Assembly: GCF_004119495.1 (NCBI RefSeq) | Contig: NZ_NRQU01000005.1 | Span: 62,001-126,000, forward strand | Direction: 5' to 3' | Length of the DNA: 64,000 bases | Origin: Flavobacterium sp. YO12 | GTDB lineage: Bacteria > Bacteroidota > Bacteroidia > Flavobacteriales > Flavobacteriaceae | Shown: positions 2,989 through 64,000 of the stretch, piece by piece | Layout of the letters: each line of letters opens with the position of its first letter | How positions within the stretch are numbered: position 1 is the stretch's first letter | The notes under the pieces: model-generated | Database searches by the model: none | Told to the model about the DNA's origin: nothing | The model's input: the letters and a program-made list of their open reading frames with translations, nothing else | Made by a program: the position numbers and the translations under genes

Positions 2989-3993
2989 ATGACAAATCGT
3001 AGAAATTTTCTAAAAAAAACGGCAATGGCATCTGCGGCTGTTGCATTCGGTTCTTTTGCCGGGCGAGCGGGAGAACTTGAGGAACAAAATGAACTTCTTG
3101 ACGGAAAAGTAAGAAAACCAATTGTACTTTCGACTTGGCGTTTTGGTCTGCAGGCCAATGAAGCTGCTTGGGAAGTTTTGAAAAAAGGAGGACGCGCTTT
3201 AGATGCTGTAGAAGCAGGTGTAAAAGTTCCAGAAGCTGATCCAAAAGAAAGAAGCGTTGGTTACGGCGGAAGACCTGATCGCGACGGACGTGTAACTCTG
3301 GATGCTTGTATTATGGATGAAATGTCTAATATTGGTTCTGTGGGTTGTCTTGAGTATATAAAACACCCTATTTCTGTTGCTCGTGCCGTGATGGAAAAAA
3401 CTCCTCACGTTATGCTTGTTTGCGATGGAGCGCTTCAATTTGCTTTATCGCAAGGTTTTCCGAAAGAAAATTTATTACTTCCTGATTCAGAACGTGAATG
3501 GAAAGAATGGTTAAAAACATCCGAATATAAACCAATTGCTAATATAGAAAACCATGATACTATTGGTATGATCGCACTTGATGCTGCAGGAAATCTATCA
3601 GGTGCCTGTACTACAAGCGGCATGGCGTTTAAAATGCACGGGCGTTTAGGAGACTCTCCTATTATTGGTGCGGGTTTATATGTCGATAACGAAATTGGTG
3701 CTGCAACAGCAACTGGACATGGCGAAGAAGTAATTAGAATTTCGGGCTGCCACTTGGTTGTTGAATTAATGCGCCAAGGTAGATCACCACAAAAAGCGTG
3801 TGAAGAAGCTGTTTCAAGAGTTGTAAAATTGATGAAAAACCGAAATAAAAATCTAAAAGACATTCAGGTTGGTTTTATTGCCTTGAACAAAAAAGGAGAT
3901 TACGGTTCATATTGTGTTCAAAGCGGTTTTAACTACGCCGTTTATGACGAAACCGGCAATCGCTTAATCGATCCTGATTTTTATCTTAAATAA
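2989..3993 (+). CDS. N4-(beta-N-acetylglucosaminyl)-L-asparaginase (glycosylasparaginase), Tat-exported
   Basis: This is an Ntn-hydrolase of the glycosylasparaginase family (334 residues, normal length). It cleaves the GlcNAc-Asn bond left after peptide and glycan trimming. The autoprocessing site is HD|TIGM, giving Thr191 as the new N-terminal nucleophile of the beta subunit. Downstream it has the conserved TTSGMAFKMHGRLGDSPIIGAG stretch and the ATATGHGE stretch, as in the Elizabethkingia (Flavobacterium) meningosepticum enzyme. The N-terminus MTNRRNFLKK followed by an alanine-rich hydrophobic run is a twin-arginine signal, so folding probably precedes export to the periplasm. It lies 51 bases after the ROK kinase, probably in one transcript. 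Together they could free GlcNAc and then phosphorylate it after import. Confidence 0.93.
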   Translation: MTNRRNFLKKTAMASAAVAFGSFAGRAGELEEQNELLDGKVRKPIVLSTWRFGLQANEAAWEVLKKGGRALDAVEAGVKVPEADPKERSVGYGGRPDRDGRVTLDACIMDEMSNIGSVGCLEYIKHPISVARAVMEKTPHVMLVCDGALQFALSQGFPKENLLLPDSEREWKEWLKTSEYKPIANIENHDTIGMIALDAAGNLSGACTTSGMAFKMHGRLGDSPIIGAGLYVDNEIGAATATGHGEEVIRISGCHLVVELMRQGRSPQKACEEAVSRVVKLMKNRNKNLKDIQVGFIALNKKGDYGSYCVQSGFNYAVYDETGNRLIDPDFYLK

Positions 3994-59695: not shown

Positions 59696-60463
59696 TTACA
59701 AATCTTTTTTATTAAACTTTTTAAGAGATATAAAAAACGGAATTCCTATCCATAACAGTAATAATAGAAACGATAATATCAGTCCAATTGTTGTTCCAAA
59801 AAAATCTTTAAAAATCGCTCCTGTATATCCCATCATTGCCGATTGATCGAGATGCAGTAATATCTGAATGCGTGCCAAATCTATAGGACTCAATGCTGTT
59901 ACACCTACCATAGCTTTCTCTATAGGATATTCTGAAAACTGAAAAAGCAAAAACAATACTACAGCATCAAAAAGCATGGCAAAATAAAGCCAGAACATTA
60001 TAGCAACTCCAATTCCTTTTGCTTTGTCTCTTGAATAAATACAGCTTAAAAAAGCCAATGAAACAAAAACTACTGAGATAAGACAACCTACCAAAAGCAT
60101 CATAAATCCAACTACACCTGGTGCGTTTATTATAAGCGGAATACCAGCCCCGAGAAAAAACGCGGTAACCATTGCAATCGAAAGACCTGCAAATAAACTA
60201 ATCCATATTTTTTTTCTCTTTAAAGGCTGACTCAATAAAAGTTCAATAAACTCGGCACTATTATAAAGATAAATTGTAGAAAATAATATCGATACTAAAG
60301 GCACTGTAAACAAAATTACATTCAATATAGTAAGCAGTCCTTTGGCTGAATTGTCTTCTAATCCAAATGATCCCCAAGAAAGTAACGCTAAAATAATGGT
60401 ATAACTTACAACAATCTTATTTTTAAGTATATCGAGTAAAACAATTTTAATTATTCTGTTCAT
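59696..60463 (-). CDS. nosY: NosY-type ABC permease
   Basis: The 255-residue inner-membrane protein has six predicted helices, the layout of the NosY permease that works with NosF and NosD. SFGLEDNSAKGLLTILNVILFTVPLVSILFSTIYLYNSAEFIELLLSQPLKRKKIW is the characteristic N-terminal half. Its start overlaps the end of nosF by 17 bases. It is needed for CuZ-centre maturation of nitrous oxide reductase. Confidence 0.9.
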   Translation of the reverse strand: MNRIIKIVLLDILKNKIVVSYTIILALLSWGSFGLEDNSAKGLLTILNVILFTVPLVSILFSTIYLYNSAEFIELLLSQPLKRKKIWISLFAGLSIAMVTAFFLGAGIPLIINAPGVVGFMMLLVGCLISVVFVSLAFLSCIYSRDKAKGIGVAIMFWLYFAMLFDAVVLFLLFQFSEYPIEKAMVGVTALSPIDLARIQILLHLDQSAMMGYTGAIFKDFFGTTIGLILSFLLLLLWIGIPFFISLKKFNKKDL

Positions 60464-61169
60464 GATGTTTCTCTTTTAAGATTGCGGCAATGGCTTTTGA
60501 GATTTTGCTTTCGCCTGTATATTGAAGTAAATCGCTGATGGTTTTATGAAAATGTACTTTTCCATCCTGCATGAAAATAATCTGAGTAATCATATCATCG
60601 AGTTCACTTAATAAATGTGATGTTATTAAAATTAATTTTCCAGCGTCACGCTCTTTTAGAATCTTTTCTTTCAGAATTTCAGACGCTAATGGATCTAATC
60701 CAGCTGTAGGCTCATCAAGTATAAGAACATCAGGATTAAAAAGAAAAGCCAATGCCGCACTCACTTTTTGAGTAGTTCCGCCAGAAAGCGTACGCATTTG
60801 TTTAGCATACATTTTGTCAAGATTAAAGGCTTTTATCAAATCTTCGTCTAAAACCGTTTTTGAATTTCTAATTTCTTTAATAATACTAATTATCTGTCCT
60901 ATTTCCATATTATCAGGATATCTCCCAATCTGCGGCATATATCCGATTTTATTTCTGTAATCAAACTCTTTTAAAATAGAATTTTCATTAAACAAAATAT
61001 CACCGTTGTCAGGAAGCACCATTCCAAGAATAGATTTAATGAGAGTTGTTTTTCCGCATCCGTTAGGACCAATCAATGCAATACATTCTCCCTTTTTAAA
61101 TTCAAGGTTTACATTTTCTAACACCTGAAGTTTTCCAAACTTTTTACTTATATTTTTTATACTAATCAT
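60447..61169 (-). CDS. nosF: NosF-type ABC ATPase
   Basis: The 240-residue ATPase has Walker A GPNGCGKTT (34-42), the signature LSGGTTQK (about 128-135) and Walker B VLILDEPTAGLDP. It overlaps nosD by four bases (ATGA) and nosY by 17. The order nosD-F-Y is the canonical maturation unit supplying sulfur to the CuZ centre of NosZ. Confidence 0.94.
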   Translation of the reverse strand: MISIKNISKKFGKLQVLENVNLEFKKGECIALIGPNGCGKTTLIKSILGMVLPDNGDILFNENSILKEFDYRNKIGYMPQIGRYPDNMEIGQIISIIKEIRNSKTVLDEDLIKAFNLDKMYAKQMRTLSGGTTQKVSAALAFLFNPDVLILDEPTAGLDPLASEILKEKILKERDAGKLILITSHLLSELDDMITQIIFMQDGKVHFHKTISDLLQYTGESKISKAIAAILKEKHHEQNN

Positions 61170-62397
61170 AAAATGAGAGATTTCATATAGGGGGTTTCAT
61201 CAATAAAATTATCTGGTGTAATACTTGGCAGTACCTTTTCTGATTTATCTAACAGGGTAATCATAAAACTCCTGAATAAAAGCATTGCCGAAGGATTATT
61301 TTCAGTAAGAACAGCAAAAAGACTCAATGGATGAAAAGGCACATCGCCAATCCCGTCTTTGTTTAAATCATATCCTTCATACTTATCCCAATAATTACTA
61401 TTGAAATGATTTAAAACGAGACTTCCATTAGTACTGATATCAAAAGTATTGGCAAGAAAATTATTGAATGAAATTTCGTTATCCATACAACTTGCCTGAA
61501 TCTTCATTCCCCAGCCATTGTCTTTAAATATGTTATGATTAAGCATTACTCTGCTCGTGCCTTCCATATAGATTCCAGAAGTATTACGTATAAATTTGTT
61601 TCCAATAATATAACTGTCTGCAATCTCTTTCAGCAGTAAACCGTAGGCGGCGTCTCCCCAGTTTTCTTCAAAGTAATTGTTGAACATTTTTACATTTTTG
61701 GTAAACATTACTGCCACTCCTGCCCCATTATTTTTAAATACATTTGAGATGTACGAATCGTCATTAGAAAACATAAAATGCAGTCCGTATCGAATATTTC
61801 CTTTAGAAATGTTTCTCCAAATAATCGAATTCGAAACAAACTCAAAATAAATCCCGTCACGATGCCCGGAAATTTTGTTTCCGATAATTTTCATACTATC
61901 GCTTTTCCAACAATGAATTCCGTTTCCTATACGTTGTTCTTCTGTCTGATGAGCTTTTATGGTGTTATTTTCAATTATGCAGCTGCTCCCTTTTTGAGCG
62001 TAAATGCCAAAAAAGTTATTTTCCAGTATATTATTCTTTACTATTACACCTATTTTATCATAAATCTTAATGCCGCAAGGATCGTTCAGCGAACCGTAAC
62101 CAGAATCAATTACTTTAAAACCAGATACAACAACACTATCAGCTTTGATAGAAACCACTTCATATTTTCTTTGTCCATCAAGAATTGGAAAATCCTTTCC
62201 TTGCAGCACAATTCTTTTATTGATCACGATATTTCCCTCACGATACACTCCTTTATAAATCAAGATTGTATCGCCAGGGTTTGCCAGATCAATAGCTTTT
62301 TTATACTTTTTATTACCTTGTTCTTCCCAACCTCAATAGTCTTCGACTGCAGATTGAAACAAAACAACGATAGAAAAAGACAGAGAAATAATTTCAT
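61166..62397 (-). pseudogene. nosD: nosD, disrupted by a -1 frame change at an A-AAA-AAG site
   Basis: NosD is a periplasmic parallel beta-helix protein (CASH repeats) that supports copper/sulfur loading of nitrous oxide reductase. From the ATG at 62397 the frame encodes a signal peptide (MKLFLCLFLSLFCFNLQS) and the start of the family domain (KTIEVGKNKVIKSIKK). It then runs into a stop. The frame beginning at base 62263 resumes at the next residue, ...AIDLANPGDTILIYKGVYREGNIV, and covers the remaining 365 residues to 61166. The two parts join if ribosomes or polymerase shift by -1 at AAAAAAG (62296-62302). One missing A (A6 for A7) explains it as well. The protein would be otherwise full length (about 410 residues). 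I keep it as a pseudogene until read data decide. Confidence 0.85.
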
Positions 62398-62432: not shown

Positions 62433-63440
62433 TTATTTTTCGATAAAAGTGCTCCATTCCTTTTCTTGTCCGTGAGACTCTGCTTCAAATGCTTTTGCTT
62501 GACTTTTATTAGAAAATGCAGCAATGTTTCCATTCATTGGACTTTTGATTGCGCCTCCAGAAACATAAAAAGCTTTTTCAGCAGGAATTAATTCATTTTC
62601 TAAAGTATAATCATGAACATAGTATCCTTTAACTTTTAATTCTGGATTTTCCTTGGTATAATTAACCATACAAGCAATATCATCAAATTTATAAGCTCTG
62701 CCTTTTTCAGTAATAATTTCAGCACCATGTTTTCCATCCGTAATACCCATTTTGCAAAAATCGCAGTTGTCCGTATTCAGTTTAATTGGAACTGGTTTGT
62801 CATTTGCGCATGAAGAAAATAAAACGGCCAATATTGCCATACTTAGTACTGTTTTTGTTTTAAAAAAAAGCATTTTCTTTTCTTTTAATACAGCAAGAAA
62901 AAGTAAAACTCCAGCAGTAATCAGCATCCATCCGCCGATATCGGGTATCGAATAGGCTCCAAAATTAAGCAGTTGCTTATAACCTAAAACGGGCGGTTGA
63001 TATGCCATTCCGGGTACACGAATTGCAGCATTTGGATCAAGGTTGTGACCATATTCATAATTCCAACGATAAAAATCAAAACCTGCAGCTATCCCAAAAA
63101 GGACAAAAGAGCCGAAGAGTGTATATAAAATTTTCTGATTTTTGTAGAATATGCATCCTAAAGCGATAACTCCAAAAAAACCTAGAATAATAGGAAGAAT
63201 TGTAAACTCAATAAAATCTTCTGTATGCAAAGTTTTCATACCAATATAATGATTAAGTCCGTTGATAATCTCAACATCACCAGCAATCTTAGAAGCATGA
63301 AGTTTTAAAACCAATCCTTCTGGATATTGAGGTGCGGTTAATTCAATTTTCCACATGGGCACAAAAATGGATCCAATAAACAGTAATCCTGATAACAAGA
63401 GAACTATTTTAGAAAATGTCGAAATTGTATTATTTCTCAT
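62433..63440 (-). CDS. nosL: NosL fused to an N-terminal membrane protein
   Basis: The 335-residue protein has two parts. Residues 1-188 hold four or five hydrophobic helices (FIGSIFVPMWKIELTAPQYPEGLVL; ILPIILGFFGVIALGCIF; WMLITAGVLLFLAVL). The second part begins at Met190: MLFFKTKTVLSMAILAVLFSSC looks like a lipoprotein signal with lipobox Cys211. It is then NosL, with the copper motif NCDFCKMG (Cys226, Cys229, Met231) and YKFDDIACMV. NosL is a copper chaperone for NosZ, usually about 150 residues and encoded separately. The same upstream membrane protein occurs separately in nos clusters of this phylum, so fusion, or an internal start at 62873, is possible. It precedes nosD by 35 bases. Confidence 0.85.
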   Translation of the reverse strand: MRNNTISTFSKIVLLLSGLLFIGSIFVPMWKIELTAPQYPEGLVLKLHASKIAGDVEIINGLNHYIGMKTLHTEDFIEFTILPIILGFFGVIALGCIFYKNQKILYTLFGSFVLFGIAAGFDFYRWNYEYGHNLDPNAAIRVPGMAYQPPVLGYKQLLNFGAYSIPDIGGWMLITAGVLLFLAVLKEKKMLFFKTKTVLSMAILAVLFSSCANDKPVPIKLNTDNCDFCKMGITDGKHGAEIITEKGRAYKFDDIACMVNYTKENPELKVKGYYVHDYTLENELIPAEKAFYVSGGAIKSPMNGNIAAFSNKSQAKAFEAESHGQEKEWSTFIEK

Positions 63441-63501: not shown

Positions 63502-64000
63502 TTATTCTTTTGGTAAATTAGTTCCCAGACTGTAGCTAATTGGAACGTTACTTCCTGCTGGTGAAACTCTAACATAACCCTGCATTTCTTGATGTAATGC
63601 ACTACAGAAATCTGTACAATAGAATGGGAATATTCCTTTTTTCTGAGGTGTCCATTTTAAAGTAAGTGTTTCTCCCGGCATAATCAGCAATTCGGCAGTA
63701 TTAGCTCCTTTAATGGCAAATCCGTGAGGAACATCCCAATCTTGTTCAAGATTAGTAACATGGAAATAAACCTCATCACCTACACGAATTCCTTCGATAT
63801 TATCTGGAGCAAAATGAGAACGAATACAAGTCATGTAAATATGTACTTTATTTCCTTCTCTTACCACTTTAGTTTCTTTTTCCCCTTTGGCTGCAAAAGG
63901 ATGCTTGTTATCAGCCATTTTGTAAAACTTCAACTGTCCGTTGTTACGAATCTTATCAGCTGGAATTCCTTGTGCATAATGCGGTTCTCCAATTGTTGGA
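63502..64000 (-). CDS. nosZ: Nitrous oxide reductase NosZ, C-terminal part (5' partial)
   Basis: The frame is open to the window edge; the TTG at 63933 is not the real start, since IGEPHYAQGIPADKIRNNGQ, conserved in NosZ, precedes it. The C-terminal cupredoxin domain carries the CuA ligands C-x3-C-x3-H-x2-M in CTDFCSALHQEM, preceded by the CIRSHFAPDNI segment. The phylum and the accessory-gene layout point to clade II NosZ, reducing N2O to N2 in the periplasm. The CuZ histidines and the signal peptide are outside the window. Confidence 0.95.
   Translation of the reverse strand, partial: PTIGEPHYAQGIPADKIRNNGQLKFYKMADNKHPFAAKGEKETKVVREGNKVHIYMTCIRSHFAPDNIEGIRVGDEVYFHVTNLEQDWDVPHGFAIKGANTAELLIMPGETLTLKWTPQKKGIFPFYCTDFCSALHQEMQGYVRVSPAGSNVPISYSLGTNLPKE

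Follow-up and report, generated by a model that had tools for sequence, protein, structure and literature searches.

The window analyzed here is a stretch of 64,000 nucleotides from contig NZ_NRQU01000005.1 (C5) of Flavobacterium sp. YO12 (G000), and its end is occupied by genes of a nos operon encoded on the minus strand. The 3' part of a Sec-dependent type nosZ lies at 63502..64000 and matched TIGR04246 over profile positions 437-578 with 223.7 bits, a score that pertains to the fragment in the window and falls under the whole-protein cut-off of 625. Beside it is an intact 335-aa open frame (62433..63440) with a C-terminal NosL domain (PF05573, 65.7 bits, residues 222-326), and this gene has the same length in the genomes of both sister species, F. 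oncorhynchi and F. plurextorum. It was noted that the first half of this frame appears to resemble a membrane protein. The interrupted nosD follows at 61166..62397, and beyond it are an intact ABC ATPase in the NosF position (60447..61169) and an intact permease-like protein in the NosY position (59696..60463; PF12679 at 25.9 bits, just under the cut-off of 27.2). NosD serves to mature the copper site of NosZ. The placement of the gene between nosZ-nosL and the ABC ATPase and permease is in keeping with the NosD family.

The nosD coding sequence opens with an ATG at 62397 and reads AGT ATA AAA AAG CTA TTG in the zero-frame mRNA before a TGA at 62262-62260, 11 codons past the AAG. The zero-frame product thus comprises 45 aa, with 34 NosD residues and 11 others, and the frame of nosD is left after codon 34. 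The -1 frame is open to its stop at 61166, and its 365-aa part reached 401.1 bits against TIGR04247 (NosD; cut-off 300), covering profile positions 16-377 of 377. These observations bear out the descriptive part of the original prediction, which had reported a zero frame stopping 11 codons later, a -1 shift that restores the NosD family sequence, and an A-AAA-AAG heptamer in phase for such a shift. The heptamer, A_AAA_AAG with its run of six As, lies at 62302-62296 on the minus strand. Residues 1 to approximately 18 of NosD form a putative signal peptide. The genome search returned a single nosD match, and no second nosD was found. What sets this gene apart from the NosD family (TIGR04247 / PF05048) is the interruption after codon 34, which was not encountered there in the 80 relatives read.

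These relatives were taken from a scan of named genomes in which the best 80 of 547 were kept, and all 80 were examined at the nosD site. Within this set of the best 80 of 547, nosD is open across the site in every case (80/80). The closest relatives are F. oncorhynchi (locus L031) and F. plurextorum (locus L032), each 98% identical in aligned protein. A comparison of nosD in close relatives had been suggested with the original prediction as a check; in it, these two nearest relatives read ATA AAA AAA GCT, which is seven As in a continuous frame compared to six As in G000. The other relatives use varied codons for the same or similar residues at the site, for example ATT AAA AAG GCA and ATC AAG AAA GCC.

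A broader survey of the genus, which recorded frame length and not the site in each genome, found NosD over the cut-off in 107 of 398 Flavobacterium genomes, and 104 of these 107 carry it in a single frame of at least 409 aa, compared to 388 aa here. The three exceptions are the present genome (388 aa), G295, in which the gene is split elsewhere, and G387 (399 aa), in which the nosD match ends at profile position 362; the pieces found in G392 and G374 fell below the cut-off. G295, a genome of the same genus, resembles the present case in having a nosD frame break at an A-run together with a split nosZ (locus L196, G295:C1:2811500-2816500, where both genes are split). It differs in that the break lies at another position in nosD, and in that it is a single-contig genome with a completeness estimate of 86%. 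The nosD and nosZ splits in G295 probably derive from indel errors in a noisy assembly.

The nosZ gene of G000 was followed past the window to the end of contig C5, 1,160 bases beyond the window end. The first 317 nt of the gene form the end of contig C9, and within nosZ the end of C9 meets that of C5 with no insert, three bases being common to both. A second private one-base deletion was found in nosZ at G000:C5:127056 (position 65056 if the window were extended), where the base is present in both relatives. This deletion, TT to T, is 104 nt from the C5 contig end, and the nosZ zero frame stops 29 codons after it. In place of a heptamer the break site has a weak, correctly phased A_AAA tetramer, and the sequence downstream gave no stable predicted structure (-5.8 kcal/mol). 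A transposon insertion in nosZ behind the contig break was also considered and set aside: a target duplication might account for the three shared bases, but neither end contains a foreign base, and by match coordinates C100 and C5, a further contig pair, have a 37-bp overlap.

Around the nosD break we assessed both the heptamer and the sequence that follows it. Across the 379 ORFs of 100 aa or more in the G000 sequence analyzed, in-frame A_AAA_AAG was recorded 50 times. Its presence at the break is not an independent coincidence, because whichever A is lost from the run in ATA AAA AAA G, the remainder reads A_AAA_AAG in just that phase, and a -1 shift there would restore the frame. A stem-loop was predicted at 62221..62295 on the minus strand, starting 4 nt past the heptamer, with a folding energy of -26.9 kcal/mol and a z of -5.15; when the 75 nt 3' of the heptamer were folded, 0 of 200 shuffles were as stable. 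It is the second most stable of 386 folding windows in nosD, and the top one overlaps it. The stem-loop is also predicted in the in-frame sister species F. oncorhynchi and F. plurextorum (-24.2 and -30.8), and folding of the same region over the 80 relatives gave a mean of -12.6, with four of the 80, these two species included, at or below -20. Its spacing of 4 nt compares with the 5-8 nt given as general in PMC4066793. No SD-like element was found 6-17 nt upstream of the heptamer, the only one being GAGG at -32, and such an element does not accompany every known -1 frameshift signal. As an observation in its own right, the stem-loop may be due to chance or may be an mRNA element.

We compared three genomes, G000, F. 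oncorhynchi, and F. plurextorum, over homologous contigs for private frame breaks. In a first set of 95 ORFs (127,420 aligned bp), four were flagged and two, nosZ and nosD, were accepted as net internal private breaks; the two flags set aside were one with gaps cancelling within five bases and one that was diverged in its first 75 nt. In the wider set of 164 ORFs (216,275 bp), where the test counts just frame breaks that lie 60 nt or more inside both ORF ends, six were flagged and four accepted, namely nosZ, nosD, and a neighboring pair of C2 genes. The setting aside of flagged ORFs was a matter of judgement and concerned two of the six with G150 as reference (nt 3072 of 3153, where the alignment is diverged, and nt 71 of 2805) and two of the six with G151 as reference (nt 3062 of 3150 and nt 63). 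Flags from two-way comparisons alone were left unused, as they cannot be polarised, and contig C1, although part of the set searched, adds little or nothing to the control counts, given that about 1 kb of its 10-kb query matched the relatives at 95% and the rest matched weakly or not at all. By the same test, private frame breaks were found in 0/160 ORFs of F. oncorhynchi and 0/159 of F. plurextorum, and with G000 as the reference 0/168 and 0/167 were flagged in the two relatives.

The two C2 genes, at C2:54622 and C2:56279, are adjacent C39-peptidase ABC exporter/HlyD-type genes, and in each of them the frame is broken by a private indel of one base. All four accepted breaks fall in two operons, nos and the peptide exporter, which both look accessory. 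Two of the four fall in long runs (A7, T8) and two in short ones (TT to T; T3 to T4). The 95 ORFs of the first set hold 98 A/T runs of length 7-8, and among the breaks accepted there nosD alone lies in such a run; A7 runs number 67 in the same ORFs.

One-base indels were also counted in general. Private intergenic one-base indels stood at 27 against 530 private substitutions in G000, compared to 85/797 and 122/1236 in the relatives, and two of the 27 in G000 are the very sites in nosD and nosZ. Within ORFs, the raw one-base indels numbered 6 in G000 and 24 and 32 in the relatives, and it was noted that the indel count demands two agreeing alignments for G000 only, which leaves G000 undercounted and adds alignment noise to the counts of the relatives. 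Despite this bias, the intergenic and coding one-base indel counts gave no sign of general indel noise in G000. Private substitutions in the affected stretches amounted to 0.017-0.024 per base, compared to about 0.025 over all compared bases. A mutator strain was considered as the cause of several private indels and was rejected, with mutS and mutL both present and open.

The nosD break is best explained by a private A7-to-A6 deletion towards the 5' end of the gene in the assembled genome, and we assign a probability of roughly 0.92 to such a one-base deletion without programmed recoding. Translation from the normal nosD start would then leave the frame after codon 34 and end at 45 aa, and no exported NosD would be made save by rare -1 slippage. 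Several features of an inactivating indel were found, in that the frame is disrupted relative to intact orthologues, the disruption is private to one lineage, and the same pathway carries a further lesion in the nosZ deletion, with the caveat that the latter lies near a contig end. The original prediction had set several interpretations side by side. Of these, the A7 relatives support the plain reading, a lost A or an error in the homopolymer, and the programmed shift, the slippage, and the phase variation are the parts that found no such support. Programmed or phase-variable control of nosD is unlikely, and the earlier suggestion of a phase-variable or frameshift-regulated gene runs against the absence of the interruption from all 80 relatives examined and against an A-run that varies among them.

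Three alternatives to the plain deletion would keep nosD in use, and the one with the most in its favor is -1 ribosomal frameshifting at A_AAA_AAG with the stem-loop, yielding useful NosD either as an adventitious rescue or as a regulated dnaX-like signal. We consider this quite improbable. The layout does recall the E. coli dnaX -1 signal, with the A_AAA_AAG heptamer, of the X_XXY_YYZ pattern, in phase and a stable stem-loop downstream. However, nosD has no SD-like element at the usual distance, its zero-frame product is 34 NosD residues and 11 others, and neither the heptamer motif nor the frame break is conserved in orthologues; in nosD, heptamer and stem met once one A was lost. The stem-loop is not evidence of programming, because it is present where the frame is intact, it comes without an SD-like element, and nosZ is broken in the assembly. 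Its presence in the two in-frame sister species indicates that it did not arise for frameshifting. The break in nosZ, which belongs to the same operon and is not at a heptamer, weighs against frameshift regulation of nosD as well: with a weak tetramer there, a rescued NosD would be without its partner unless the nosZ break is an error. The heptamer itself is among the three most efficient E. coli motifs when stimulators are present, and PMC4066793 gives up to 54% shift in E. coli for the best motif with a strong pseudoknot, against about 0.3% for the three best heptamers, of the A_AAG type, without stimulators. Since shifting in E. coli can be efficient at an A_AAG-class heptamer that is joined to a strong structure, leaky -1 shifting that gives some NosD is plausible if the sequence is real. 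It further counts against a programmed signal in nosD that Bacteroidia ribosomes reportedly do not recognise SD sequences (PMC9976891). That the deleted allele is still expressed, A_AAA_AAG and the stem-loop acting as a natural SD-independent -1 signal that would supply enough NosD, seems to us a long shot, and it requires that the nosZ break be a sequence error or that NosZ be rescued as well. Were it so, the A7 form of the sister species would be a ready site where the stem-loop could already cause some truncation. Less probable again is phase variation, in which the A-run would be a contingency tract switching nosD on and off. The A7 alleles of the relatives and the A6 allele here are both seen, but the varied codons at the site indicate that no tract is maintained, seven As is short for such a role given 67 A7 runs in just 95 ORFs, and the 80 loci read showed no other off-state at the nosD site. 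Slippage of transcription on the A-run, which would restore the frame in part of the mRNA, had likewise been offered in the original prediction and is to be judged hardly more credible than phase variation. One inserted A would restore the nosD frame, but six As is under the reported run lengths: for many bacteria PMC1088944 describes selection against slippage at runs of nine As or Ts, and it suggests that eight may suffice in some. The "pseudo pseudogenes" of that source are similar in that their frames are broken at an A-run, where a shift would restore the gene, whereas their runs are of about nine and the present gene has six As and a second broken gene in its pathway. The tssM gene of Citrobacter rodentium (PMC4256274) is likewise a frame-disrupted gene with a slippery run, maybe partly rescued.

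Within the one-base deletion there is a further question of whether the organism itself carries it. Consensus error is the sub-case in which it does not: the organism would have seven As and an intact nosZ, and both indels would stem from poor local coverage beside the contig break. Low coverage around the contig break is a serious rival, above all for nosZ, the site of which is close to the C5 end where C5 and C9 abut without an insert. The contig pair C100/C5 overlaps by its 37 bases and is yet unmerged, the four accepted breaks among 164 ORFs in G000 compared to none in either relative fall in two local patches, and the substitutions give no overall decay. The excess of breaks over the relatives could also mean a locally poor consensus, and with mutS and mutL open no mutator was found to explain it. 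On the other side, 2.9 kb separate the nosD site from the contig end, short runs account for two of the four breaks, all four are in operons that appear accessory, and private substitutions in the affected stretches are not raised. The lack of an excess of intergenic one-base indels, on a count that is biased as described, favors real inactivation over general assembly noise. On balance we regard consensus error as possible and as the less probable case, and we lean, with modest confidence, toward a nosD deletion that is real and present in the organism. Recent and real inactivation in dispensable operons fits best, and the simplest biological reading of the nosD and nosZ deletions would be a recent loss of N2O reduction in this strain. 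Against a complete loss of NosD, the stem-loop after the heptamer would permit partial rescue.

If the deletions are real, the strain has recently lost N2O reduction and its two nearest relatives keep their nos genes intact, in which case an annotation based on the presence of nosZ and nosD would wrongly class the strain as an N2O sink. Should they be consensus errors, the case calls for caution against reading one-base homopolymer breaks as recoding sites: whenever ATA AAA AAA G loses an A, what is left is a perfect dnaX-type heptamer. In either case the nosD lesion is most likely of an ordinary kind and accompanied by a lesion in nosZ, as distinct from a demonstrated frameshift signal.

The substitutions in the nos genes were examined for signs of decay beyond the two deletions. 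On the G000 branch the nos genes, nosZ being represented by its C5 part alone, have 21 nonsynonymous and 124 synonymous changes, which is the same ratio as the 432 and 2554 of the other ORFs (p=1); relaxed constraint was thus not detected in the nos-gene substitutions overall. By gene, nonsynonymous changes make up 7 of 27 in nosD on the G000 branch compared to 2 of 26 and 4 of 33 on the sister branches, and 9 of 48 in the C5 part of nosZ compared to 1 of 29 and 0 of 18. Among the private NosD residues, two of six (V47I and F404Y) occur in none of the relatives compared. Relaxed selection on nosZ was considered and rejected: its nine private residues at first looked like decay, yet every one of them also occurs in at least one further species, with one residue limited to a single such species. 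With no clear decay beyond the two deletions, a real loss must therefore be very recent. It was also observed that eight private amino acid changes of G000 form a block at nosZ codons 155-310, with residues that occur in other Flavobacterium loci, which suggests recombination within nosZ.
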